Part shown: positions 14,980 through 23,915 of the stretch, one piece after another
Layout of the letters: each line of letters starts with the position of its first letter
Numbering within the stretch: position 1 is the first letter of the stretch
Source: a virus
IMG/VR virus record: IMGVR_UViG_3300027782_000360
Location: 1 to 23,915 of that record
Strand: one strand, 5' to 3'
DNA: 23,915 nt
Made by a program: the position numbers and the translations under genes
The notes under the pieces: generated by a model
What the model saw: the letters and a program-made list of their open reading frames with translations, nothing else
What the model was told of the DNA's origin: nothing
Database searches by the model: none

Positions 14980-15606
14980 TTAAAAAATAATCGGATTTCC
15001 TACCATGAAACTTACCCCTACCTCTCTTACCTTATCAAAAGCAGAAAGAGGATCCATATTGAAAAACTCTCTAGAACTACCCCTATCGGAAGAAACCCTA
15101 AAAGAGGCTAAAGCCTTATGCACTTGTGTTTCTATTTTCATAGCACTTCCTTTTTCAACAGGAATAGCAAACCTAGCTACCCATTCATGTACCGTACCTG
15201 CGTTGTTTATCCCCATAACTCTCCTAGGAACATCAGTAATAGTCATTCCTACCTTAACCAAATCAGGATACCCAGCATTCACAAGAATATACACATATTC
15301 GATATTATCTTTACTTTTACTCTGAATCTTTTTATTTTCTATGCCGTATAAGAATCTCCAGGTAATCCCGTCATCTGTAGTATTTTCAATAACTTCAGTC
15401 GTATACCTTGCAGAAAAGAAGTCAAGGACTTTCTCTGGAGATATATGAGGGACTTTGATTAATAATCGTTCAAAGTTATCCTTCCATAACTGACCGTGTT
15501 CTTCCTGTAATGGCGGTAGTTGACTCCTACTTACATCAACAAGGGTAATTTTTCCCTTCTCTTGAAGAGAAAGTGCTACTTGGTAATCTATTTTGATGAA
15601 ATGCAT
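14980..15606 (-). CDS. T5orf172/GIY-YIG-superfamily nuclease-like protein, 208 aa
   Basis: Residues 102-185 match the T5orf172 (MUG113-like) branch of the GIY-YIG nuclease fold: EYVYILVNAGYPDLVKVGMT contains the modified GIY and YIG strands, Arg 128/129 (VPRRVMGI) follows on the first helix, Glu 159 and His 163 form the E-x-x-x-H helix (KIETQVHKAL), and Glu 180 lies in SSREFF. These positions fit a catalytic site. The first 95 residues are a separate domain I cannot name. Such proteins are often mobile or defence-related nucleases; here the target is unknown. It follows the 65-aa membrane gene by two bases. Fold call fairly firm, activity inferred. Confidence 0.8.
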   Translation of the reverse strand: MHFIKIDYQVALSLQEKGKITLVDVSRSQLPPLQEEHGQLWKDNFERLLIKVPHISPEKVLDFFSARYTTEVIENTTDDGITWRFLYGIENKKIQSKSKDNIEYVYILVNAGYPDLVKVGMTITDVPRRVMGINNAGTVHEWVARFAIPVEKGSAMKIETQVHKALASFRVSSDRGSSREFFNMDPLSAFDKVREVGVSFMVGNPIIF

Positions 15607-15608
15607 AA

Positions 15609-15806
15609 TTATCTAAAAAATGAAATTAAGAAACTGTAGACAAAAATAGCTACATTGATAGGCCAGAGAAGAATTGCCCAAGCAATCTCAATAGAAGTAT
15701 ACGGTTTATCTTGGTTAACCGTAATAATAGCCCGATTGATTAACCAAGCACTTATTAATCCAATTAATAGGTATCGGGTACCGTAAAATAGTAAACATGA
15801 TATCAT
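15609..15806 (-). CDS. small two-span membrane protein, 65 aa
   Basis: Two hydrophobic helices are visible, about 4-26 (CLLFYGTRYLLIGLISAWLI) and 42-63 (AWAILLWPINVAIFVYSFLI), joined by a polar loop with NQDKPYTS. No family is recognised. It ends two bases before the T5orf172-like gene and probably shares its transcript. Small inner-membrane proteins of phages often act in exclusion or lysis control, but nothing here points to one of these. Confidence 0.6.
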   Translation of the reverse strand: MISCLLFYGTRYLLIGLISAWLINRAIITVNQDKPYTSIEIAWAILLWPINVAIFVYSFLISFFR

Positions 15807-15837
15807 AACTAATTAATTTATAATAGAAAGATAAGAA

Positions 15838-16272
15838 CTAATCTTGTGATTTCCAACTATTCTTAGGAAAAAATACCTTATAAAATTGCATTAAAAGTGC
15901 GCAGTTTTCATACATTTCAACTTCTTCAAAAAATTCAATCATCTCGGTTAGTGCATAATTTATAGATTGCTCTCCAAGCAAGTCTTTTAATTCATATAGC
16001 GTATCCAACTGTGACAGATCAATTCTCTCAAGGTATCTTATAAGCCTAGTAAAGTACTTTATCTTGATTGAATCCCTTACCGTAGCGAAAGATTCTTGAT
16101 ATCTACTATCATACATCTGCTCCATTATAGAATAATTCTCTACACCCTTTATTGTCATTCCTAAAAGTATATAGGTATTATGTAGTAAATCATATACTTC
16201 ATTTTCCTGATATTCCTCTGCATGACTACTTTCAAAAATATTGAAAAGCGTAATTTTATCTATCTCCCTCAC
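15838..16272 (-). CDS. unknown helical protein, 144 aa, GTG start
   Basis: The start is a GTG ending at 16272, preceded 13 bases upstream by the TATTTATA element; the next in-frame ATG would remove over 35 residues. The protein is acidic and helical throughout, e.g. YLERIDLSQLDTLYELKDLL and EMIEFFEEVEMYENCALLM, with no membrane segment, signal or metal motif. I recognise no family. It is the first gene after the gene-poor region, so it probably begins the transcript that continues into the membrane and nuclease genes. Confidence 0.65.
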   Translation of the reverse strand: MREIDKITLFNIFESSHAEEYQENEVYDLLHNTYILLGMTIKGVENYSIMEQMYDSRYQESFATVRDSIKIKYFTRLIRYLERIDLSQLDTLYELKDLLGEQSINYALTEMIEFFEEVEMYENCALLMQFYKVFFPKNSWKSQD

Positions 16273-16285
16273 TAATACTCTTTTC

Positions 16286-16293
16286 TATAAATA
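16286..16293 (-). promoter_or_regulatory. candidate late element TATTTATA before 144-aa gene
   Basis: The minus strand reads TAATATATATTTATAGAAAAG, 13 bases before the GTG start of the 144-aa gene. A TTGACA lies about 20 bases further upstream, so a host-like promoter is also possible. Confidence 0.38.
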
Positions 16294-16578
16294 TATATTA
16301 ATCACATATACAAAAAATTGTCAAAATTTTTTTCTTTGATTTTATGAAAAAATACCCAAAAAGTAGAGTAGGAAAATAAAAACCTTTTTACTATATTAGA
16401 GTATCAATACAAAGCATCATAAACTGAAAAGCACGGCATTTCAAATGCTCGGTCTTTGACTCAACATATAATAGTTATTTGACATATTGAAATAAAGAGG
16501 GTGAGGGGTATAGGTGGTAACTCGTGCTTGAAGTAAAGCAGCTATATAGATCAAACTTAGAAAGAAGAGAATACCTTG

Positions 16579-16606
16579 CTCTCCTAGTACGTATAGGTAG
16601 GGAGAG
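16579..16606. other. stem-loop CTCTCC/GGAGAG
   Basis: Six perfect base pairs (16579-16584 with 16601-16606) enclose a 16-base loop containing TACGTA. It lies inside the block shared with the far-right gene-poor region; no U-run follows, so it is not a simple terminator. Confidence 0.4.
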
Positions 16607-16753
16607 TTTGGGCGGTAACTTCTATAAAGCTATGTAGTATATATAAATATATACCCCCATACCTCAATTTTTCATCAGAAATATAATACTCTATGAGGCT
16701 CGAGAACCCGACGTGCTACCCGTTTGAGGGAACCATACTATCAAACTTCTCTA

Positions 16754-16789
16754 ACCTTGACATCACCTTGACATCACCTTGACCTCACC
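16754..16789. repeat. three tandem 11-bp repeats (ACCTTGACATC)
   Basis: Units at 16754-16764, 16765-16775 and 16776-16786 are identical except for one base in the third (ACCTTGACCTC); a partial ACC follows. The spacing is about one helical turn, which would suit a protein-binding array. Confidence 0.7.
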
Positions 16790-16792
16790 GAG

Positions 16793-16819
16793 AAAAAAAA
16801 GAGAGCCCGAAGACTCTCT
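16793..16819 (-). terminator. rho-independent terminator after 122-aa gene
   Basis: On the minus strand an AGAGAGTC-TTCG-GGCTCTCT hairpin (eight pairs, one G-U, with a stable UUCG loop) is followed by eight T. It begins 16 bases after the stop of the 122-aa gene and closes the early block. Confidence 0.9.
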
Positions 16820-16834
16820 CTTAAATCCTAAAAC

Positions 16835-17203
16835 CTAAATCGAACAGTTGCAACTTGGTTCATCACAATGATGAGATTGTAATTCAGGATCTTCTTCTCT
16901 ATCTTCTATCCTAAACCCAGCTCCATCATATTCAGGTCCTTGATCTTTAAAAGGAACTAGATCTTCAAACCTATTCTTTACTACTACTTTCTTTCCCATC
17001 ACAAAGGTAAATCCTTCAAACCCTACCTTACCTACCTTACTTATATTACATTCATAATCATTCATTACTATCCTTTCATCTACAGATGATCTAGATTGTC
17101 TACAAATACTTCCTACTTCATTGAAGTAATAAGTTGAATCTCCTTTGTAAGCTTTTCTTTTAATGTAGAAAGGAGTGCCTGAAATAAATTGTTCTCTTGT
17201 CAT
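16835..17203 (-). CDS. unknown early protein, 122 aa, Cys/His-rich tail
   Basis: The protein starts MTREQFISGTPFYIKRKAYK and is mostly beta, with a FEGFTFVMGKKVVVKNRF hairpin near 61-78. The last 15 residues hold HHCDEPSCNCSI, in which two His and three Cys could bind a metal. No family is recognised. It has its own consensus promoter, a leader without Shine-Dalgarno and a strong terminator, so it is a single-gene unit, the last of the early cassettes in transcription order. Confidence 0.72.
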   Translation of the reverse strand: MTREQFISGTPFYIKRKAYKGDSTYYFNEVGSICRQSRSSVDERIVMNDYECNISKVGKVGFEGFTFVMGKKVVVKNRFEDLVPFKDQGPEYDGAGFRIEDREEDPELQSHHCDEPSCNCSI

Positions 17204-17230
17204 AATGTTTATCTTTTTAATTATTGATAC

Positions 17231-17263
17231 CTAAATATACGAACTATTATTTAAATAAGCAAC
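17231..17263 (-). promoter_or_regulatory. early promoter for 122-aa gene
   Basis: GTTGC and TATATTTAG are separated by exactly 19 bases, followed by the leader GGTATCAATAATTAAAAA. The pattern fits Bacteroidota-type -33 and -7 boxes. Confidence 0.85.
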
Positions 17264-17269
17264 TTTATT

Positions 17270-17425
17270 TTACAATCTTATGAACTTTGTTTCACCTGGA
17301 TTATCTACTGTGGTATAGATAAAAGTATTACCTGAACCATCTTCGAAGTCTATTGTAAGGATTTTACTTCCTATTTTAATCTCTATTAGCTCTTTGGCTA
17401 ATCTTAAATGTGATTGTCTCATCAT
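17270..17425 (-). CDS. small unknown protein, 51 aa
   Basis: A 51-codon frame starts at ATGATG, overlapping the stop of the preceding 74-aa gene (TGATG), and ends just before the -33 box of the next promoter. The peptide starts MMRQSHLRLAKELIEIK and ends TTVDNPGETKFIRL; it looks like one helix followed by a beta hairpin (KILTIDFEDGSGNTFIYT). The overlap with the upstream stop and the fit to the cassette borders support a real gene. The second ATG would give 50 residues. Function unknown. Confidence 0.62.
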   Translation of the reverse strand: MMRQSHLRLAKELIEIKIGSKILTIDFEDGSGNTFIYTTVDNPGETKFIRL

Positions 17426-17646
17426 ACCTTTAATATTTTTAAACTATTAATATTTACAGAGGTTAATTTATTTTCTTTTGTCTTTAGTATAGCTTCATCG
17501 TTCTGATCAAACATCTCGATTAAAACTCCTATAACTGTTTCTCCAAAGAACTTTCCTACTCCTTGATAAACCATCCCTATCATCGGAGAGGAGCTCTTAG
17601 CGACCTTCCTCTCCTTTCCTTTCCATGTATTATATAATTCAGACAT
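17422..17646 (-). CDS. unknown early protein, 74 aa
   Basis: The small basic protein starts MSELYNTWKGKERKVAKSSS. Its middle has GMVYQGVGKFFGETVIGVLI and its end LTSVNINSLKILKV, suggesting a small beta-barrel. It directly follows the 66-aa gene without a gap and overlaps the 51-aa gene as ATGATG, so three small genes form one operon. No family is recognised. Confidence 0.68.
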   Translation of the reverse strand: MSELYNTWKGKERKVAKSSSPMIGMVYQGVGKFFGETVIGVLIEMFDQNDEAILKTKENKLTSVNINSLKILKV

Positions 17647-17847
17647 TTATGCTACTTCCTTCTCTAGCTCCTCTTGAACATTCTCTAGAGCTATTTTATA
17701 ACCAAAATTAATAGCCATTTGCATTAGGATAATATCCATTGAACCTCCATTAGCTTTAGCAAATGATTCTAGATCTTCTCTAGAGTTTGGAGTTGCTACA
17801 ATACCTCTGTTCATTTTAAATAATTCTCTTTCTAAAAATTCTTTCAT
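17647..17847 (-). CDS. unknown early protein, 66 aa
   Basis: The protein starts MKEFLERELFKMNRGIVATP and has a helix with NGGSMDIILMQMAINFGYKI before a Glu-rich end (ENVQEELEKEV). No family or membrane signature is recognised. It is the first gene of a three-gene operon driven by the promoter at 17873-17905, with a leader of about 25 bases lacking Shine-Dalgarno. Confidence 0.68.
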   Translation of the reverse strand: MKEFLERELFKMNRGIVATPNSREDLESFAKANGGSMDIILMQMAINFGYKIALENVQEELEKEVA

Positions 17848-17872
17848 AATATTTTGTTTTAATTATTAATAC

Positions 17873-17905
17873 CTAAAGATAAGAAAAAGCCCCCGAAGGG
17901 GCAAC
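17873..17905 (-). promoter_or_regulatory. early promoter with terminator in its spacer
   Basis: GTTGC-N19-TATCTTTAG drives the three-gene operon starting at 17847. The 19-base spacer contains a GC-rich terminator for the upstream gene, so the -33 box overlaps the first bases of the terminator stem. Confidence 0.85.
17884..17902 (-). terminator. terminator GCCCC-TTCG-GGGGC inside promoter
   Basis: On the minus strand five GC pairs with a TTCG loop are followed by TTTTT. It starts eight bases after the stop of the 129-aa gene and lies between the -33 and -7 boxes of the next promoter. Confidence 0.9.
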
Positions 17906-17910
17906 TTTAT

Positions 17911-18300
17911 TTACAATTCATTTTCTGTTACAGGAGTAAATTCTCCCTCCCTAACTACATCAGTTACTCTAATAAATTCTTCAACTTCAACTTCTTCCTC
18001 TCCAAAATCCATAAAGTTATTCTCTAAAGCTTCTCTTAAGTTTTCTAATTGAATAGGAACTCCAACACATTCAATTCTATTATCATAATTTAATTCTAAC
18101 TCAACTGAATCTACATCAACTAAATCTCTTTCATTATTCTCAGCCCAATTAATAACTTTATCAATTGCTCTTTCAATATCTAAAGTAGAAATCTTTCTTC
18201 CTCCCTCTTCAATTGAATTGATAAGATTAATAACATCCTCTTTTGAGAAGATTGAACTAACTGAATTTTGAACTGAACTTAATACTAAATCTTTTTTCAT
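17911..18300 (-). CDS. unknown acidic early protein, 129 aa
   Basis: The protein is strongly acidic, starts MKKDLVLSSVQNSVSSIFSK and is helical to about residue 60 (EDVINLINSIEEGG, LDIERAIDKVINWAENNER). A Val/Asp/Glu-rich beta region follows (DVDSVELELNYDNRI) and then an acidic tail (FGEEEVEVEEF). Such composition is common in phage proteins that bind host enzymes or mimic DNA, but there is no specific evidence for that here. It is a single-gene unit with its own promoter and a terminator embedded in the next promoter. Confidence 0.7.
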   Translation of the reverse strand: MKKDLVLSSVQNSVSSIFSKEDVINLINSIEEGGRKISTLDIERAIDKVINWAENNERDLVDVDSVELELNYDNRIECVGVPIQLENLREALENNFMDFGEEEVEVEEFIRVTDVVREGEFTPVTENEL

Positions 18301-18340
18301 AATGTTTTGTTTTTAATTATTGATTAATTATTTTTGATAC

Positions 18341-18373
18341 CTAAATATATGAACTTTAATTTAATTGAGCAAC
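18341..18373 (-). promoter_or_regulatory. early promoter for 129-aa gene
   Basis: GTTGC-N19-TATATTTAG. The leader is longer than in other copies, because an AATAATTAA segment appears twice between the -7 box and the start codon. Confidence 0.85.
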
Positions 18374-18374
18374 T

Positions 18375-18560
18375 TTATTTTTCTATATTTTCATATACAT
18401 AATCCCTAATACCTTCCCTCTCATATTGAGACATTTCACAACCATCCTCTCTATAAATTCCTTCTATTGCATCTCCTGCTATTTGTACCTCATACAAAAC
18501 CTCATCGAACATTACATTAAAGATTTTAATAGTCCTTTCTAAGTCAATCCAATTTTCCAT
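18375..18560 (-). CDS. unknown early protein, 61 aa
   Basis: The acidic 61-residue protein starts MENWIDLERTIKIFNVMFDE and ends GIRDYVYENIEK; it is mostly helical with a central CEMSQYERE. No family is recognised. Its stop lies just before the -33 box of the next promoter, and it has its own promoter, the usual cassette layout. Confidence 0.65.
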   Translation of the reverse strand: MENWIDLERTIKIFNVMFDEVLYEVQIAGDAIEGIYREDGCEMSQYEREGIRDYVYENIEK

Positions 18561-18587
18561 AATACTATTTGTTTTAATTATTGATAC

Positions 18588-18620
18588 CTAAATATAAGAA
18601 TTATAATTGTAACTAGCAAC
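18588..18620 (-). promoter_or_regulatory. early promoter for 61-aa gene
   Basis: GTTGC-N19-TATATTTAG followed by GGTATCAATAATTAAAAC and an A/T-rich leader to the ATG at 18560. Confidence 0.85.
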
Positions 18621-18625
18621 TTTAT

Positions 18626-19012
18626 TTACCTACTTTTTAACTCCTCCCAAACATACTCCACTTCCTCGAAATCCTCTGTAAGCATTAATTGTCTCATCAT
18701 TTGATTTGACATAGCTACCTTCTCTATAATGTATTGCATTGTTTCTCCATCTACATCTATTGTTTGAAGCTTCTTGATGATCTCTTTTACTACATCTCTC
18801 TTACTCTGACTTTCCATTAGAGCAGTCTCGTAGATTACTCGATATGATTTGTAGTAATTATCCTCCCAAGTAATAACTAATGTTCTACCATCCTCTGTAG
18901 TAATTGTAGTTTCAGTTGTATCATAGACCTCTATGACATCTGCGAAGTCCAATTCAAATTCTCTTTGTGTGCTATTAGAAGCCATTGTAATGAAGTAGCC
19001 TAAGTCTTTCAT
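18626..19012 (-). CDS. unknown early protein, 128 aa
   Basis: The first half (about 10-60) reads as beta strands: STQREFELDFADVIEVYDTT and DGRTLVITWEDNYYKSYRV. The second half is helical, with RDVVKEIIKKLQTIDVDGE and SNQMMRQLMLTEDFEEVEYV. No known domain is recognised. The start codon follows directly after the conserved leader (AACATATAACATG). Single-gene cassette. Confidence 0.7.
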   Translation of the reverse strand: MKDLGYFITMASNSTQREFELDFADVIEVYDTTETTITTEDGRTLVITWEDNYYKSYRVIYETALMESQSKRDVVKEIIKKLQTIDVDGETMQYIIEKVAMSNQMMRQLMLTEDFEEVEYVWEELKSR

Positions 19013-19036
19013 GTTATATGTTTTAATTATTGATAC

Positions 19037-19069
19037 CTAAATATAAGAAGAAGAAAGGGAACTAGCAAC
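19037..19069 (-). promoter_or_regulatory. early promoter for 128-aa gene, -33 box in hairpin loop
   Basis: GTTGC-N19-TATATTTAG. The -33 TTG is the loop of the hairpin at 19057-19077, so terminator and promoter share sequence. Confidence 0.82.
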
Positions 19070-19077
19070 TAATTCCC
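19057..19077 (-). terminator. hairpin GGGAATTAG-TTG-CTAGTTCCC overlapping promoter
   Basis: On the minus strand nine pairs (one G-U) close a TTG loop, followed by TTTCTTCTTCTT. It lies 16 bases after the stop of the 58-aa gene. The interrupted T-run makes it a weaker terminator. A close copy is at 22125-22145. Confidence 0.65.
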
Positions 19078-19093
19078 AATCTTTTTCTAAAAA

Positions 19094-19270
19094 TTAATTG
19101 AAAGGAATTAAATTTCTTTCTAGTATAGTTTTAATTAATTTACCATCTTCTTCCTTATAAACTATTTTAGTACCTACTATATTAATAGTACTTTGTAGTT
19201 TGTTAGAATTAAGAATTAGAGCAGTTCCTTTTTTTACAAAAGATTTAGAAATTGAAATAGATTTTAACAT
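19094..19270 (-). CDS. small unknown basic protein, 58 aa
   Basis: A 58-codon frame lies between a full promoter (19298-19330) and a terminator hairpin, just as for the other cassette genes, and starts at an ATG 27 bases after the -7 box. The peptide starts MLKSISISKSFVKKGTALIL and looks like a small beta-barrel (STINIVGTKIVYKEEDGKLI) ending NLIPFN. Function unknown. The cassette context is the main support. Confidence 0.68.
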   Translation of the reverse strand: MLKSISISKSFVKKGTALILNSNKLQSTINIVGTKIVYKEEDGKLIKTILERNLIPFN

Positions 19271-19297
19271 AGTGTTTGTTGTTTTAATTATTAATAC

Positions 19298-19330
19298 CTA
19301 AATATATGAATAAAGATTGTAACTAGCAAC
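19298..19330 (-). promoter_or_regulatory. early promoter for 58-aa gene
   Basis: GTTGC-N19-TATATTTAG with leader GGTATTAATAATTAAAAC (one base different from the usual GGTATC). Confidence 0.85.
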
Positions 19331-19353
19331 TTTTTCACAAACTATTTTAACCC

Positions 19354-19380
19354 AAAAAAGCCCCAATTAAGGAGCCTTTT
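19354..19380 (-). terminator. rho-independent terminator after 259-aa gene
   Basis: On the minus strand AAAAGGCTCC-TTAATT-GGGGCTTTTTT forms a GC-containing stem (two G-U pairs) followed by six T. It lies 20 bases after the stop of the 259-aa gene and upstream of, not inside, the next promoter. Confidence 0.82.
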
Positions 19381-19399
19381 CTTCGACCAATAACTAAAA

Positions 19400-20179
19400 C
19401 TATTCAGCTAAAACCGGCTGAATAATATTTTTAGCAAATCCTAATACTTGATCAATAATAGAATTTACATTACAATTTTCTTCACTAGAAGAACCTCCAT
19501 GATGACCAAATTCAAACACTACAGTTCCTTTTTTACCACTTTTACTTAAGTCAACTAATTTAATTGACTTGATGTAAGGACAGTAATTAAATTTCATTTG
19601 AATATTACAACCTACACCAAAAGTAATTCCTTCATTCTTCAAATCAAATTCTATCTTCTCTTTCTTAAAAGAAGAGATTTTAATTTCCAATTCTCTAATA
19701 GCTTTATTAATTAAATTCATTTGATCTGAAATTCTACTAAATTCTTCTTTGAAAGGAATTACAACATTATTTACAGCATAAAGTATACTGAAATCATTAT
19801 CTTCTATAACTCCTGCTAATCTTCCTAATAATTGTAATCTTTTTAACTCCCAAGAATCATTTCCTTTTGTTGAGGTTGAATAATAACTCAAATCAACTCC
19901 ATTAAAAGATTTTTCTAATTCATCATTCCAATTCTCTCTCAAGTAAATATTAAACAATTCTTTCTTGTAAGAGTAATCTGGATGAGCCATTTTAAAGTAA
20001 ACAGATCCTCTTAATACTTCAATCTCTACTTCTTCAGGAAAATCTGAGAAGAAAGGAAGTAAAGCATCTGATATTGCTTTTTGCTCTCTAACATAAATGT
20101 CAGATCTTTTGTTTTCTAATTCTACTTTTTGTACTACGAAGATTGCTTTTTGATCTTCTAAAATTTGAACTCTTGTCAT
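19400..20179 (-). CDS. unknown coiled-coil early protein, 259 aa
   Basis: The largest early gene here. The N-terminus (1-45) is a charged helix (MTRVQILEDQKAIFVVQKVE). A central helical part (about 130-180) includes FSRISDQMNLINKAIRELEI and KISSFKKEKIEF, likely a coiled coil paired with the N-terminal helix. The C-terminal region (185-259) is a beta section with CNIQMKFNYCPYIKSIKLVD and GKKGTVVFEFGHHGGSSSE, followed by a helix (NSIIDQVLGFAKNIIQ). I recognise no family; the two ends framing a coiled coil suggest a structural or binding protein rather than an enzyme. Own promoter and terminator. Confidence 0.72.
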   Translation of the reverse strand: MTRVQILEDQKAIFVVQKVELENKRSDIYVREQKAISDALLPFFSDFPEEVEIEVLRGSVYFKMAHPDYSYKKELFNIYLRENWNDELEKSFNGVDLSYYSTSTKGNDSWELKRLQLLGRLAGVIEDNDFSILYAVNNVVIPFKEEFSRISDQMNLINKAIRELEIKISSFKKEKIEFDLKNEGITFGVGCNIQMKFNYCPYIKSIKLVDLSKSGKKGTVVFEFGHHGGSSSEENCNVNSIIDQVLGFAKNIIQPVLAE

Positions 20180-20206
20180 AATGTTATATGTTTTAATTAT
20201 TGATAC

Positions 20207-20239
20207 CTAAATATACGAACATTAATTTAATTAAGCAAC
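20207..20239 (-). promoter_or_regulatory. early promoter for 259-aa gene
   Basis: GTTGC-N19-TATATTTAG followed by GGTATCAATAATTAAAAC and ATATAACATT before the ATG. Confidence 0.86.
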
Positions 20240-20243
20240 TTTT

Positions 20244-20474
20244 TTATTGATTATTTTCAAAAATAATTATCTGATTATTTACTACTGCAAATTGTCTTTC
20301 ATTAGATTCGATCTTCTTATCTAGAGATCTTCTAGCTCTATTGGTAGATTTCTTCTCTGGAGATGTTTTTACTATGCTTTGATTCCTAGTAGAGGAACAA
20401 CTTGATGCTAGTATTGCTACTAAGATGATGAATAGTATTAATACCCATCCATAATCCTTTTGATCGTTTTTCAT
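20244..20474 (-). CDS. small membrane/lipoprotein-like protein, 76 aa
   Basis: I use the ATG ending at 20474, four bases after the stop of the preceding gene, not an upstream in-frame ATG inside that gene. The N-terminus MKNDQKDYGWVLILFIILVA is a hydrophobic helix followed by ILASSCSS, a plausible lipobox with Cys near residue 26. The rest is basic and polar (KKSTNRARRSLDKKIESNER) and ends in a hydrophobic IIIFENNQ. It may be an envelope lipoprotein, e.g. for superinfection exclusion or lysis; this is inferred from the N-terminus alone. Third gene of a three-gene operon. Confidence 0.65.
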   Translation of the reverse strand: MKNDQKDYGWVLILFIILVAILASSCSSTRNQSIVKTSPEKKSTNRARRSLDKKIESNERQFAVVNNQIIIFENNQ

Positions 20475-20478
20475 AATC

Positions 20479-20682
20479 TTATTTCTTTTTAAATTGTTTA
20501 AACCATTCTTCAATGTATCTTGGATTTTCTGCTCTGAAATTCAATAAGATTTCAATTACTTCTTCCTCACTATAACTTCTTTCTTGTTGCCATTTAGCAC
20601 CTTCAATGAAAGCATCTTCATTATAAGGTTGCTTAGCCCAATAATTTTCAGAAGCTTCTTCAAGTGTTTCTTTATTTTTCAT
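20479..20682 (-). CDS. small unknown phage protein, 67 aa
   Basis: The start is the ATG ending at 20682, two bases after the stop of the 50-aa membrane gene; the open frame upstream of it lies in that gene. The peptide starts MKNKETLEEASENYWAKQPY and contains EDAFIEGAKWQQERSYSEEE, a phrase common in small proteins of many phages whose role is unknown. Helical, no membrane segment. Middle gene of a three-gene operon. Confidence 0.72.
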   Translation of the reverse strand: MKNKETLEEASENYWAKQPYNEDAFIEGAKWQQERSYSEEEVIEILLNFRAENPRYIEEWFKQFKKK

Positions 20683-20684
20683 AA

Positions 20685-20837
20685 TTATAGAATTAAAAGA
20701 TAAGTTAATAATACAAACCAAGAACCTAGAATAATTACAACTACCTGTAAAGAGACTGGAGTATCTAATCTCAAAGCACATAAACTATTTACTGCCCAAA
20801 TCAAAAAGAATCTGATATTACTAAAGAATTTTTTCAT
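20685..20837 (-). CDS. small two-span membrane protein, 50 aa
   Basis: A 50-codon frame starts 28 bases after the -7 box of its promoter and stops two bases before the 67-aa gene. It begins MKKFFSNIRFFLIWAVNSLC and contains a second helix, VVVIILGSWFVLLTYLLIL, so it is probably an inner-membrane peptide. No family is recognised. The tight spacing with the next gene and the well-formed promoter support the call. Confidence 0.65.
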   Translation of the reverse strand: MKKFFSNIRFFLIWAVNSLCALRLDTPVSLQVVVIILGSWFVLLTYLLIL

Positions 20838-20865
20838 AACTTTTATTTGTTTTAATTATTGATAT

Positions 20866-20898
20866 CTAAAGATAAGAAAAAGGCCCCGAAGGGCCAAC
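20866..20898 (-). promoter_or_regulatory. early promoter with terminator in its spacer
   Basis: GTTGG-N19-TATCTTTAG followed by the leader ATATCAATAATTAAAAC. It drives the membrane protein, 67-aa and lipoprotein genes. The spacer holds the terminator at 20877-20895. Confidence 0.84.
20877..20895 (-). terminator. terminator GGCCC-TTCG-GGGCC inside promoter
   Basis: On the minus strand five GC pairs and a TTCG loop are followed by TTTTT, eight bases after the stop of the 98-aa gene. Same architecture as at 17884-17902. Confidence 0.9.
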
Positions 20899-20903
20899 CC
20901 TTT

Positions 20904-21200
20904 TTACAACTTTCTCAATAATTCTCTCTCAGCTGTATTACAAACAGATTTACTTTTTGCCCCAATATGCCAAATAATGTATTCATCCAATTTTAAAGGA
21001 CGACCCTCCTTCCAATCATAAATTGTAAATACTTCTCCATTCTCAGTTTCCATTTCCCATTTGAAATTTACTTTGTCATCTCCCCAATTTGAATCCATAG
21101 TTGGATCCCCAAAAGCATTTGTCAATTGCTCAACTGTTGCTCGAATTGTTACATCATAAAATGAAGTCCCACTTGTGTCTTTTAAAGTCTTTTTTGCCAT
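20904..21200 (-). CDS. conserved phage protein with YDWK/WHIG motifs, 98 aa
   Basis: Two motifs are clear: FTIYDWKEGRPLKLDE (58-73) and IIWHIGAKS (75-83), preceded by FGDPTMDSNWGDDKVNFKWE (30-49). I recall this arrangement as a small conserved family in phages of T4 type and other marine phages, without known function. The compact size suggests a mixed alpha-beta fold binding a partner or ligand. Single-gene cassette with promoter and strong terminator. Confidence 0.75.
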   Translation of the reverse strand: MAKKTLKDTSGTSFYDVTIRATVEQLTNAFGDPTMDSNWGDDKVNFKWEMETENGEVFTIYDWKEGRPLKLDEYIIWHIGAKSKSVCNTAERELLRKL

Positions 21201-21227
21201 GATTTTATATGTTTTAATTATTGATAC

Positions 21228-21260
21228 CTAAATATATGAAATTAAATAATACGAAACAAC
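21228..21260 (-). promoter_or_regulatory. early promoter for 98-aa gene
   Basis: GTTGT-N19-TATATTTAG with the standard leader GGTATCAATAATTAAAAC. The -33 box differs at its last base. Confidence 0.82.
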
Positions 21261-21264
21261 TTTT

Positions 21265-21537
21265 TTACTTACTTTCTTCAATTGCTTTTAAAAACTCTTC
21301 AATTACATCTTCATCTCCAGCCCAATATCCTAATTCAGATAAATTATCATTTTCCATATCATTTAAGATATCTCCTAAAGTTTTATAAGAATCAATTTGA
21401 AAAATAATAGCCCCTAAATTCTGATAATGAGCTTGATAATCCTCAAGGTTTAATTCTAAATCTGTTCTCCTATCACTATAAAGTAATTGAGCGTTTTCAA
21501 TTAAAATTTGTTTTGCAGTAGATAATAAATTTCCCAT
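21265..21537 (-). CDS. unknown acidic early protein, 90 aa
   Basis: The helical, acidic protein starts MGNLLSTAKQILIENAQLLY and contains LNLEDYQAHYQNLGAIIFQI and WAGDEDVIEEFLKAIEESK. No family is recognised. Its stop lies just before the -33 box of the next promoter, the usual compact cassette. Confidence 0.68.
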   Translation of the reverse strand: MGNLLSTAKQILIENAQLLYSDRRTDLELNLEDYQAHYQNLGAIIFQIDSYKTLGDILNDMENDNLSELGYWAGDEDVIEEFLKAIEESK

Positions 21538-21564
21538 GTTTTTATATGTTTTAATTATTGATAC

Positions 21565-21597
21565 CTAAATATAAGAATAAAAATTTAAACGAGCAAC
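21565..21597 (-). promoter_or_regulatory. early promoter for 90-aa gene
   Basis: GTTGC-N19-TATATTTAG followed by GGTATCAATAATTAAAAC and ATATAAAAAC before the ATG. Confidence 0.86.
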
Positions 21598-21604
21598 TAT
21601 TTTG

Positions 21605-21883
21605 CTAATTATTTTTCAAAAAGTTTTCTTTAACAGAAGTTGGAACATAATAACGATATAGATTTCTACTATCGGATTTTGTTTTCCATAGTATTCTCTT
21701 ATACAAACCTTTTTCTAATCCTCTTCTCAACATGTCTGCATATTTCTTATTTGATTCCCAACCACCCCTATAGTAGCTGAAAACTTCAACTTGAATTTCT
21801 GTTTCTGTTTTAAATGGATTGTGAATTAAATGATGAACAATTTCTTTTACTGAACGATAAGGTTTTGGTTTACAGTACCACAT
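21605..21883 (-). CDS. small basic protein, possible winged helix, 92 aa
   Basis: The basic protein starts MWYCKPKPYRSVKEIVHHLI. Residues about 26-57 (TETEIQVEVFSYYRGGWESN; KKYADMLRRGLEKGLYKRI) read as two helices followed by a two-strand wing with NLYRYYVPTSV, typical of winged-helix DNA-binding proteins. I have seen similar NKKYADLLRRG-type sequences in phages but know no function. It may be an early regulator; that remains inference. Confidence 0.7.
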   Translation of the reverse strand: MWYCKPKPYRSVKEIVHHLIHNPFKTETEIQVEVFSYYRGGWESNKKYADMLRRGLEKGLYKRILWKTKSDSRNLYRYYVPTSVKENFLKNN

Positions 21884-21909
21884 ATTTATATTGTTTTAAT
21901 TATTAATAC

Positions 21910-21942
21910 CTAAATATAAGAACTTTAATTTAAACTAGCAAC
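21910..21942 (-). promoter_or_regulatory. early promoter for 92-aa gene
   Basis: GTTGC-N19-TATATTTAG with leader GGTATTAATAATTAAAAC. Confidence 0.86.
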
Positions 21943-21945
21943 TAT

Positions 21946-22077
21946 TTACTGAAAACTTTTTAATAATTTTTTCATCACCTGATACTCTGTCATACAGGGA
22001 TATAATACTCTCCAGGTATTTCTAATACCCTGTAGATATGCTCTTGTCTGAAGATGTGCTTTAGATTCTACTTTCAT
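21946..22077 (-). CDS. small basic unknown protein, 43 aa
   Basis: A 43-codon frame starts 27 bases after a -7 box and stops just before the -33 box of the next promoter, as in the other cassettes. The peptide starts MKVESKAHLQTRAYLQGIRN and ends MTEYQVMKKLLKSFQ; it is basic and helical. No family is recognised. The short length lowers confidence, but the cassette would otherwise hold no gene. Confidence 0.6.
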   Translation of the reverse strand: MKVESKAHLQTRAYLQGIRNTWRVLYPCMTEYQVMKKLLKSFQ

Positions 22078-22104
22078 GATTTTATATGTTTTAATTATTG
22101 ATAT

Positions 22105-22137
22105 CTAAAGATAAGAAAAAGAAAGGGAACTAACAAC
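22105..22137 (-). promoter_or_regulatory. early promoter for 43-aa gene, overlapping hairpin
   Basis: GTTGT-N19-TATCTTTAG followed by ATATCAATAATTAAAAC. The -33 TTG forms the loop of the terminator at 22125-22145. Confidence 0.82.
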
Positions 22138-22145
22138 TAATTCCC
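22125..22145 (-). terminator. hairpin GGGAATTAG-TTG-TTAGTTCCC overlapping promoter
   Basis: On the minus strand a nine-pair stem (two G-U) is followed by TTTCTTTTTCTT, 19 bases after the stop of the 81-aa gene. It differs from the copy at 19057-19077 by one base in the stem. Confidence 0.72.
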
Positions 22146-22164
22146 TAACTTTTTTTAATTTATT

Positions 22165-22410
22165 TTAAACCTCAAAAATACTATATACATCATCCCCATC
22201 CCCATTACTTTCATCAAACCAAGTAAACAAATCTTCATCTACATCTTCATCAAAACCTATTTTATCTTTAATACATTCGATAACTTCCTTTCCATTTCCC
22301 ATTAACAAATAAGATTCTCTATCCCCGTATCTTTCATATACATTAACATGAACTAGATAATTAGCACCCTCTTGAACTTGTCTTAAATTAACTTCTACTA
22401 AATTTTTCAT
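22165..22410 (-). CDS. unknown acidic early protein, 81 aa
   Basis: The protein starts MKNLVEVNLRQVQEGANYLV and forms a predicted beta sheet with VHVNVYERYGDRESYLLMGN, then a helix (VIECIKDKIGF) and a very acidic end (DEDVDEDLFTWFDESNGDGD). No family is recognised. Single-gene unit with promoter upstream and hairpin terminator downstream. Confidence 0.68.
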   Translation of the reverse strand: MKNLVEVNLRQVQEGANYLVHVNVYERYGDRESYLLMGNGKEVIECIKDKIGFDEDVDEDLFTWFDESNGDGDDVYSIFEV

Positions 22411-22436
22411 TTTTTATATGTTTTAATTATTAATAC

Positions 22437-22469
22437 CTAAATATAAGGACTTATCTAATACGATCCAAC
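22437..22469 (-). promoter_or_regulatory. early promoter for 81-aa gene
   Basis: GTTGG-N19-TATATTTAG with leader GGTATTAATAATTAAAAC and ATATAAAAA before the ATG. Confidence 0.84.
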
Positions 22470-22492
22470 TTTTTTTTAATTTATTTTAACAG

Positions 22493-22885
22493 CTAATAGT
22501 AATAGGAGGCAACTATTTTAACAATTATTTTAGGAAACAAAATAACTCCATCCCAACAACCATATACATCCTTCATACTAGTAATCTCTCCTCTTACATG
22601 ACCTTCATTACTGGATCCATCCTTTCTGATATAAGGAGATTTAGCATAGTCCCTAACCTGTATATTAAGTGACTCATCATTTAATTTAACATATACATAC
22701 TCTTTTCCTCCAAATACTATTTCCTCTTGGATAACTCCTAATAATATTTCTGGATTATTTGTAGAGTAATACATAGACTGGAACCATTCTCTACCTCCTC
22801 CCATTATTGTAATTACATTATAGGATTGATTATCTAATTTACCTGTCATAGATTTTGAACTGATACTAACTTTTTGACCTGTCAT
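22493..22885 (-). CDS. unknown early protein, 130 aa, tail encoded by promoter-like repeat
   Basis: The protein starts MTGQKVSISSKSMTGKLDNQ and is mostly beta, with SYNVITIMGGGREWFQSMYY and EEIVFGGKEYVYVKLNDESL. No family is recognised. The last dozen residues (KIIVKIVASYYY) are encoded by a 38-bp sequence identical to the segment at 22924-22961, which there forms the end of the next gene and the -33 part of this gene's own promoter. The C-terminus is therefore probably a result of recombination rather than an old part of the domain. Confidence 0.7.
   Translation of the reverse strand: MTGQKVSISSKSMTGKLDNQSYNVITIMGGGREWFQSMYYSTNNPEILLGVIQEEIVFGGKEYVYVKLNDESLNIQVRDYAKSPYIRKDGSSNEGHVRGEITSMKDVYGCWDGVILFPKIIVKIVASYYY
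22494..22531. repeat. 38-bp direct repeat, copy inside the 130-aa gene
   Basis: Identical over 38 bases to 22924-22961 (offset 430 bp). On the minus strand it contains TAGTTGCCTCC, that is, a -33 box, but no TATATTTAG follows here. Confidence 0.95.
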
Positions 22886-22910
22886 TTTTTGTTGTTTTAA
22901 TTATTGATAC

Positions 22911-22943
22911 CTAAATATACGATTAATAGTAATAGGAGGCAAC
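22911..22943 (-). promoter_or_regulatory. early promoter for 130-aa gene
   Basis: GTTGC-N19-TATATTTAG; the -33 box and most of the spacer lie in the 38-bp repeat copy at 22924-22961. Confidence 0.86.
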
Positions 22944-22961
22944 TATTTTAACAATTATTTT
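22924..22961. repeat. 38-bp direct repeat, copy at promoter
   Basis: Covers the last four codons of the 79-aa gene and the -33 box and spacer of the next promoter; identical to 22494-22531. Confidence 0.95.
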
Positions 22962-23187
22962 TCTCTTCACACTCTGTACAAGGCATCCAATCTCCTTCTG
23001 CATTTAAGATAACATCACCACTACCATCACATAAGCTACAGTAGGTAAAATAATCTGCTAATAACTCTTTAGCCTCTTCCACTGTACCTGACATTAGTAA
23101 GTCAAATCCATTAACACCATGATCTTCCTCCCAACTGTTAACTACTGATTGAGGAACTGATTGTAAGTACTTTAATAAGTCTGTCAT
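22948..23187 (-). CDS. small zinc-ribbon-like protein, 79 aa
   Basis: The N-terminal half is helical (MTDLLKYLQSVPQSVVNSWE; VEEAKELLADYF). The C-terminal half has CSLCDGSGDV (Cys 50, 53) and PCTEC (Cys 70, 73), two CxxC pairs spaced as in DnaJ-type zinc ribbons, with one more Cys at the end. It may bind nucleic acid or a protein partner through this zinc site. The start follows a leader containing AAAGGATATATT, so there is a weak Shine-Dalgarno. Single-gene cassette. Confidence 0.75.
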   Translation of the reverse strand: MTDLLKYLQSVPQSVVNSWEEDHGVNGFDLLMSGTVEEAKELLADYFTYCSLCDGSGDVILNAEGDWMPCTECEEKNNC

Positions 23188-23212
23188 AATATATCCTTTT
23201 AATTATTGATAC

Positions 23213-23245
23213 CTAAATATAGTAATTTAACTAATAGGAACCAAC
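23213..23245 (-). promoter_or_regulatory. early promoter for 79-aa zinc-ribbon gene
   Basis: GTTGG-N19-TATATTTAG followed by GGTATCAATAATTAAAA. It is the first promoter, in transcription order, of the minus-strand cassette series in this window. Confidence 0.84.
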
Positions 23246-23264
23246 TATTTTTTAATTTATTTTC

Positions 23265-23282
23265 CATTATTCACATCCATGG
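23265..23282. repeat. 18-bp direct repeat, copy 1
   Basis: CATTATTCACATCCATGG, identical to 23298-23315, 33 bases apart. The minus-strand frame 23257-23313 would encode an 18-residue peptide with MDVNN twice, which I do not call as a gene. Confidence 0.9.
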
Positions 23283-23297
23283 TATAAAGAGAGGGTA

Positions 23298-23315
23298 CAT
23301 TATTCACATCCATGG
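23298..23315. repeat. 18-bp direct repeat, copy 2
   Basis: Second identical copy; it is followed on the plus strand by GTGAG and eight T, so TCAC/GTGA could form a weak plus-strand terminator. Confidence 0.9.
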
Positions 23316-23357
23316 GTGAGTTTTTTTTACATTATCCCTAAAATAATTAAGAAAAAA

Positions 23358-23390
23358 GTTGCTTATAAAGAGTTTAGTTCGTATCTTTAG
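23358..23390 (+). promoter_or_regulatory. early-type promoter on the plus strand
   Basis: GTTGC-N19-TATCTTTAG followed by GTAT matches the minus-strand promoters, including the 19-base spacing and the AAA before the -33 box and TTCG before the -7 box. It is the only copy facing right and leads into sequence without a long frame. Confidence 0.82.
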
Positions 23391-23600
23391 GTATGTTAGA
23401 AGGGAATAAGGGGCCTGGCTTTGGAATAAAGTCGGAAGAGTAGACGGGCCGGTACGCCATGTTCTGTACTATGTAATATATACTACCGTTTTATACCCAC
23501 TTAAAGCAAAGCTTTAACTTAAACTGTTACTTTAACTTAAAGTGATGCTTTAACTTAAAGTGATGCTTTAACTTAAATCAAAGCTTTAGGTAAGGGGAAA
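23391..23600 (+). ncRNA. candidate non-coding RNA from the plus-strand promoter
   Basis: A transcript starting near 23395 would include GGCTTT-GGAAT-AAAGTC (a six-pair hairpin at about 23417-23433, extendable by CC/GG with a bulge), then the 18-bp array, whose units each contain the inverted repeat CTTTAACTTAAAG. A weak AAGGGA/TCCCTT hairpin near 23605-23622 could end it. The 3' end is a guess. It would be antisense to the end of the minus-strand operon. Confidence 0.35.
23494..23590. repeat. tandem array of 18-bp units (CTTTAACTTAAAGTGATG)
   Basis: Four full units occur at 23512-23529, 23530-23547, 23548-23565 and 23566-23583. All begin CTTTAACTTAAA; units two and three are identical, while the last six bases vary in one and four. 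A degenerate unit precedes (23494-23511) and CTTTAGG follows. Units two and three contain the perfect inverted repeat CTTTAA-C-TTAAAG. Iterons of a replication origin or an operator array are possible. Confidence 0.88.
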
Positions 23601-23723
23601 GGGACCCTTTTGAGATCCCTTGTCTTTGTGCTTATCCTTCCTGGTGTAGGACTTTTTCGATTTATGGACTTTACTCTGTGAGGCTGCCCATCTCTCCTGG
23701 AGAGTTACTTGAATTGTTTTCAT
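23586..23723 (-). CDS. small lysine-rich basic protein, 45 aa
   Basis: A 45-codon frame starts with ATGA, overlapping the stop of the upstream partial gene by four bases, a classic coupled start. The peptide starts MKTIQVTLQERWAASQSKVH and continues with KSKKSYTRKDKHKDKG, rich in Lys, which would bind nucleic acid. I recall comparable small Lys-rich peptides with SKK-Y-RK-KHK patterns in other phages, but no established function. The last codons abut the 18-bp tandem array. Confidence 0.68.
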   Translation of the reverse strand: MKTIQVTLQERWAASQSKVHKSKKSYTRKDKHKDKGSQKGPFPLT

Positions 23724-23915
23724 GCTTCTTCTAGATATAAAAAGGTTGTAACTTCACATTTCATTTCTCTGAAGAGTTTAGGTCCTAGTCTTGACCCTAG
23801 AGTAAAATAAAATATAGCCTCTAACTTCTCAGCATCTACCATAGGATCTACTGAATATAAATCCTTTATAATATTAGCTAATTTTACTTGACCTCTACCC
23901 TCTACCCATGTAATT
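23720..23915 (-). CDS. C-terminal part of unknown protein (cut by window edge)
   Basis: The minus-strand frame enters from the right edge and runs 64 codons to a TGA at 23720. It contains GQVKLANIIKDLYSVDP, MVDAEKLEAIFYFTLGSRLG and ends CEVTTFLYLEEA; it is helical with no membrane segment. I recognise no family from this fragment. The overlap with the following 45-aa gene indicates an operon whose promoter lies outside the window. Confidence 0.7.
   Translation of the reverse strand, partial: ITWVEGRGQVKLANIIKDLYSVDPMVDAEKLEAIFYFTLGSRLGPKLFREMKCEVTTFLYLEEA

Follow-up and report, generated by a model that had tools for sequence, protein, structure and literature searches.

In the viral contig IMGVR_UViG_3300027782_000360 (positions 1 to 23,915, the whole of which we call the window), four promoters within a minus-strand run of small genes carry a strong hairpin. 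We conclude that each hairpin is probably the upstream gene's intrinsic terminator, overprinted on the promoter of the downstream gene, a reading to which we assign a probability of roughly 0.8. The promoters consist of a TTG element at -33, a spacer of 20 nt (N20), and a -7 box, TAT[AC]TTTAG, and the terminator would be written into this 20-bp spacer or around the TTG. On double-stranded DNA the promoter would require only the TTG and the -7 box, so that the spacer would be free to hold complementary arms. As the upstream gene is transcribed, its RNA would fold, RNA polymerase would stop in the T-rich stretch entering the -7 box, and the next transcript would begin some 10-15 nt beyond the stop point. 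Both the termination by the hairpins and the activity of the promoters are predicted here from sequence.

Four promoters of the window contain hairpins

An earlier, sequence-only reading of the window had placed hairpins at four promoters, and all four are present (Table 1). In the first pair (17889-17902 and 20882-20895), five G-C pairs close a TTCG loop and are followed by TTTTTCT and then by TATCTTTAG. The first base of the stem is also the final G of the -33 TTG, and a compensatory C-G/G-C swap distinguishes the two stems. The other two hairpins are longer and, as had been described, present the -33 TTG itself as a triloop. Individual z-scores are modest for the two TTCG hairpins (-2.3, -1.7) and strong for the longer ones (-3.8 for 19057-19077 and -4.4 for 22124-22146).

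Hairpins exceed chance expectation in related phages

Comparing spacers in related phages had been proposed as a check on the terminator idea. We scanned IMG/VR for the -7 box together with the leader that follows it in the window (GTATYAATAATTAAAAC or a close variant after each of 15 promoters), which yielded 66 stretches. The N20 promoters from these stretches, from the window, and from vB_FspM_immuto_2-6A (immuto), a T4-like Flavobacterium phage isolate, gave 362 distinct spacers. The region from -12 to +28 relative to the TTG was folded with a cut-off of <= -10 kcal/mol, and each column was permuted among promoters to obtain the null expectation. The cut-off is reached by 65 of the 362 spacers, compared to 2.1 (standard deviation 1.3) after permutation; this excess is limited to the promoter position. 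With near-duplicates removed, a larger set of 442 promoters contains 78 stems where 6.8 +/- 1.8 are expected. A scan restricted to Watson-Crick stems finds 39 versus 1.9 expected, an undercount because the class with the TTG loop often contains a G-T pair.

In a separate pattern scan, TTCG in the same register as in the window is flanked by a stem of at least 5 bp in 35/72 distinct 32-mers; when TTCG is shifted by two, the figure is 0/54 among the matches listed (viral contigs). In bacterial genomes, the TTCG pattern yields chance matches across many phyla, with a stem of at least 5 bp in 2/114.

Strong hairpins are present at about a quarter of the promoters and absent from 514 of 697 distinct ones. 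They favor one form of the -7 box, occurring at 140/410 promoters with TATCTTTAG versus 43/287 with TATATTTAG (odds ratio 2.9). The sequence-only reading had noted hairpins at all three minus-strand promoters with TATCTTTAG; this holds in the window, and beyond it the link is a tendency.

The hairpins bear the signature of RNA structure

The hairpins fall into eight or more registers whose stems are unrelated, and the TTG and the -7 box are kept in all of them. These registers include TTCG stems inside the spacer, TTG triloops, GAC-TGTT-GTC hairpins, long A-rich/T-rich stems around the TTG, and stems that extend with their 3' arm as far as the -7 box; between registers, the position of the loop shifts by about 9 nt. 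In the TTG-loop class, chosen by its 5' arm alone, both sides change in 6 of 10 pairs and 98.5% of cells are paired, compared to 24-62% in slid controls. The compensatory changes leave the promoter boxes intact.

The strand of the loop is also informative. Among G+C stems with a TTCG loop, from a set assembled without selecting for TTCG, the TTCG lies on the sense strand in 32/32 cases and CGAA in 0, a bias that points to RNA transcribed in the same sense as the genes rather than to DNA structure or a protein site. In addition, 101/183 hairpins have at least five T in the 8 nt after the stem, where the corresponding positions in promoters without a hairpin give 61 +/- 4. Covariation, sense-strand TTCG, and T enrichment all support the earlier suggestion that a terminator may lie inside the promoter. 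The TTCG and TTG-loop classes combine all of the features of an intrinsic terminator: a G+C-rich hairpin, a U-tract, placement on the sense strand, and a position after a stop codon. Rfam 15 covariance models gave no match in 15500-23915 at E up to 0.1.

These properties bear on two explanations in which the structure acts as DNA. In the first, the dyads would be operators, bound around the -33 element by a dimeric phage or host regulator of a subset of genes. Symmetry about the TTG is seen in several dyads, and the preference of hairpin promoters for TATCTTTAG would fit such a regulator. The stems, however, share no common sequence and undergo compensatory pair changes, they occur in at least eight registers, TTCG is confined to the sense strand, and the hairpins depend on an upstream gene ending nearby; we therefore regard operators as very unlikely.

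In the second, a DNA hairpin or cruciform would be extruded and would be required for initiation or modulate it. The virion RNA polymerase of phage N4 works in this way, the DNA hairpin itself, with a short stem and a 3-nt loop, being the promoter. In outline, that hairpin is matched here by a stem with a 3-nt loop at the -33 element. A class of the N4 type would have a DNA hairpin at each of its promoters; here the same boxes and spacing mostly come without one (the 514 distinct promoters noted above), and neither the shift of the loop between registers, nor the asymmetry of the loop on the sense strand, nor the dependence on upstream context is what extrusion would predict. This makes it a most improbable explanation. 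The earlier suggestion that a hairpin in single-stranded DNA could tune promoter strength found no support here.

Hairpins follow the end of an upstream gene

If the hairpins are terminators, their presence should depend on the gene before them. With ORFs (open reading frames) called mechanically, 81/83 hairpin promoters have a co-directional gene whose end lies no more than 80 nt upstream, versus 162/238 hairpinless ones (an optimistic P of 1.6e-9). The hairpin starts a median of 9 nt past the upstream stop codon, and an arm overlaps the upstream coding sequence in only 6/81 cases, whereas the gap lengths at hairpinless promoters predict 46 such overlaps. Under a stricter ORF cut, 2 hairpin versus 33 hairpinless promoters contain the stop codon of the gene before them, and no upstream gene is found for 1 versus 20. 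Gaps of 40 nt or less contain a separate terminator in 0/170 cases, so any intrinsic termination there is by the embedded hairpin. Taken as predictions from gene positions, these data favor the earlier claim that the upstream transcript would stop within the next promoter.

The same style of hairpin also occurs without a promoter. A stand-alone TTCG terminator (16797-16822, Table 1) sits after the last gene of the promoter array (16835-17203), and in immuto a stand-alone TTCG hairpin with a T-run lies at 128528, just past the major capsid gene (end 128506).

Hairpins could instead protect or define mRNA 3' ends, as a barrier to exonucleases or as a processing site, without themselves stopping RNA polymerase. 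Sense-strand hairpins just past stop codons, including those with poor U-tracts, are what this explanation would produce; we consider it quite unlikely given that T enrichment after the stem exceeds that of matched hairpinless promoters and that the same hairpins stand alone with long T-runs at the end of the array and after the capsid gene.

It has also to be asked whether these composites are kept chiefly as short homologies for the recombination of cassettes, the hairpin being incidental. Identical 32-mers stand ahead of up to six unrelated gene families and near-identical spacers connect unrelated neighbors, which suggests shuffling, and the promoter-early stem-loops (PeSLs) of T4-type phages are reported to act in this manner. 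More than one upstream family is found for 51/78 downstream families; hairpinless promoters behave alike, with similar junctions, and recombination leaves both the covariation and the upstream-gene rule unexplained. As the chief reason for the composites it is hardly credible, although recombination may be an added effect.

Weighing embedded termination

Several observations weigh against the reading of the hairpins as overprinted terminators. A textbook U-tract is missing in about 45% of hairpins, which may terminate weakly; one class runs its 3' arm into the -7 box; and the TTCG stem, with five pairs, is short. A strong hairpin is absent from around three quarters of the promoters, so that gene-by-gene isolation is not general: the earlier claim that every cassette is isolated would apply to the hairpin promoters and fails for the rest. 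Finally, kinship among the sequences means that they are not independent, which is what makes the P values optimistic.

The long dyads AAGGAATAG...CTATTCCTT, found in L031, L052, L061, and L040, extend from upstream of the TTG into the -7 box and have no T-run besides the -7 box itself. For this class, a role as terminator is least certain.

Embedded termination would also allow a relay, in which a polymerase, having let go of its transcript at the embedded terminator, remains bound to the DNA and passes to the promoter at that site, so that single-gene cassettes are transcribed in a chain. Recycling termination by bacterial RNA polymerase has been described (PMC11347151); here the release point would lie within the promoter itself. 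We offer the relay as a speculative extension that is unlikely as matters stand.

Comparison with known promoter-hairpin composites

PeSLs were reportedly described in the T4-type phages RB49, phi1, PST, and nt-1, by Arbiol in 2010 and Comeau in 2014, and are said to be composite promoter-terminator motifs that mediate gene shuffling. Across the whole RB49 genome, we found that a hairpin occupies the full 17-bp spacer of about ten sigma70 promoters. In one example, TTGACA-GGGGATCGGTGATCCCC-TATAAT (TTGACAGGGGATCGGTGATCCCCTATAAT, 121708-121736), the hairpin lies exactly between -35 and -10, while at 18504-18532 the -35 box lies within the loop of a longer hairpin. RB49 thus has both of the geometries seen in the window, between the boxes and with the upstream box in the loop, and in both T4-like phages the promoter and terminator hairpin are combined between small genes. 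A view based on 40 kb of RB49, where one hairpin lies 16 bp upstream of -35, had suggested that PeSL geometry is different; the whole genome overturned it.

The two systems differ in their parts. In RB49, sigma70 boxes flank a 17-bp spacer that is filled by a GGGG...CCCC stem abutting the -10 box, whereas here the boxes are TTG and TAT[AC]TTTAG, the 20-bp spacer also holds the T-run, TTCG loops are common, and there are many unrelated stems. PeSLs in the strict sense have a sigma70-like early promoter (TTGACA/TATAAT), which TTG-N20-TAT[AC]TTTAG is not, making the composites described here a Bacteroidetes counterpart or variant rather than strict PeSLs. The principle is already known from PeSLs; the present composites differ in promoter type, in a longer spacer with a T-run inside it, and in the diversity of their stems. 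We found nothing closer than PeSLs in the literature on terminators inside promoter spacers.

The promoter itself resembles the sigma-A promoter of Bacteroidetes, for which a map in F. psychrophilum gives the -7 box TAnnTTTG (PMC9723704). The upstream TTG element and the TAnnTTT core are shared; the phage box ends in TTTAG rather than TTTG, with A in place of the last G (TATATTTAG/TATCTTTAG), its spacing is rigid at 20, and its spacer may hold a terminator. A more distant parallel is the haloarchaeal virus HGTV-1, in which most left-arm ORFs are preceded by a TATA-like box and an inverted repeat, a motif that its authors likened to PeSLs (PMC3950731). HGTV-1 shares the promoter-like box with an inverted repeat ahead of many small genes; its promoter is archaeal, and the comparison here is by description.

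A terminator and a promoter would thus be fused into about 40 bp, as in T4-type phages of E. coli, on a quite different, Bacteroidetes-type promoter. That many differently built hairpins occur on another promoter type argues for selection on the arrangement itself. The composites form a large natural set of dual-code sequences in which the interplay of spacer sequence, termination, and re-initiation could be tested, and they offer a model of how gene cassettes in Bacteroidetes may be both insulated and very compact.

The promoter array and its isolate relative

The right-hand part of the window is a minus-strand run of small genes, nearly all with TTG-N20-TAT[AC]TTTAG upstream. The spacing is N20 in 15/15 minus-strand promoters, and the reversed pattern, used as a control, has 0 matches in the window. 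A strong hairpin is present in 4/15 of these promoters; 11/15 are without.

Table 1 Promoters, hairpins, and the stand-alone terminator in the window.
Feature	Extent	Strand	Stem-loop	Tail	Free energy (kcal/mol)	Upstream gene end	Downstream gene start
Promoter TTG-N20-TATCTTTAG with TTCG hairpin	17873..17904	minus	17889-17902	T-rich, 17882-17888	-10.8	17911	17847
Promoter TTG-N20-TATATTTAG (19037-19068) with overlapping 9-bp hairpin	19037..19077	minus	19057-19077; triloop TTG, 19066-19068	TTTCTTCTTCT	-11.1	19094	19012
Promoter TTG-N20-TATCTTTAG with TTCG hairpin	20866..20897	minus	20882-20895	T-rich, 20875-20881	-11.3	20904	20837
Promoter TTG-N20-TATCTTTAG (22105-22136) with overlapping 10-bp hairpin	22105..22146	minus	22124-22146; triloop TTG, 22134-22136	TTCTTTTTCT	-11.0	22165	
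Stand-alone TTCG terminator, same hairpin style without promoter	16797..16822	minus	11 bp	long T-run	-16.7		
Array of 15 promoters TTG-N20-TAT[AC]TTTAG from the pattern scan; low coordinates 17231, 17873, 18341, 18588, 19037, 19298, 20207, 20866, 21228, 21565, 21910, 22105, 22437, 22911, 23213	17231..23244	minus					

The 23.9-kb window is 75% identical over 24% of its length to immuto, which infects Flavobacterium sp. LMO8. In immuto, gp20 and gp23 are annotated as T4-like, and genes of the window match baseplate wedge families, as in a T4-type phage. A 50-kb piece of immuto, L010, has 23 promoters of this type on the coding strand, all at about 61-76 kb in a region of small genes. Spacer hairpins of <= -10 kcal/mol occur in 6/23 of these and in 2/2 promoters of the neighboring piece, L009, with examples at L010:18063, 18816, and 20344; their presence in an isolate indicates that metagenome assembly did not create the feature.

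Also in immuto, a TTCG composite, AAGTTGGCTCTTCGGAGCCAATTTCTTATATTAA (L009:33319-33342), stands directly after gp209 with an altered -7 box; perhaps only the terminator of this composite survives, its promoter half having been lost. The region L009:18607-37015 is annotated with the 7-deazaguanine genes QueC, QueD, QueE, FolE, QueF, and DpdA, so guanines of immuto DNA may be modified. Beside this possible modification stands the end of the phage -7 box, TTTAG, where the host consensus has TTTG.

Within the window, a stretch of about 37 nt, TAATAGTAATAGGAGGCAACTATTTTAACAATTATTTT (plus strand), is present twice, at 22494-22531 and 22924-22961. The second copy corresponds to the spacer and -33 box of the promoter at 22911-22942; the first lies at the 3' end of the neighboring gene, without a -7 box. 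To judge from the sequence, the repeat may be left over from the duplication or exchange of a cassette at a composite.

The only plus-strand promoter of this type, at 23359-23390, has TATCTTTAG and no hairpin. It points into a stretch (23359-23700) in which no long ORF is present and ACTTTAACTTAAAGTGATGC-like repeats occur at about 23500-23580; this stretch is possibly a non-coding RNA. Another stretch of about 500 nt without a long ORF, 16290-16800, separates the structural genes from the cassette array and contains a short direct repeat, CTTGACATCAC, near 16757-16790.

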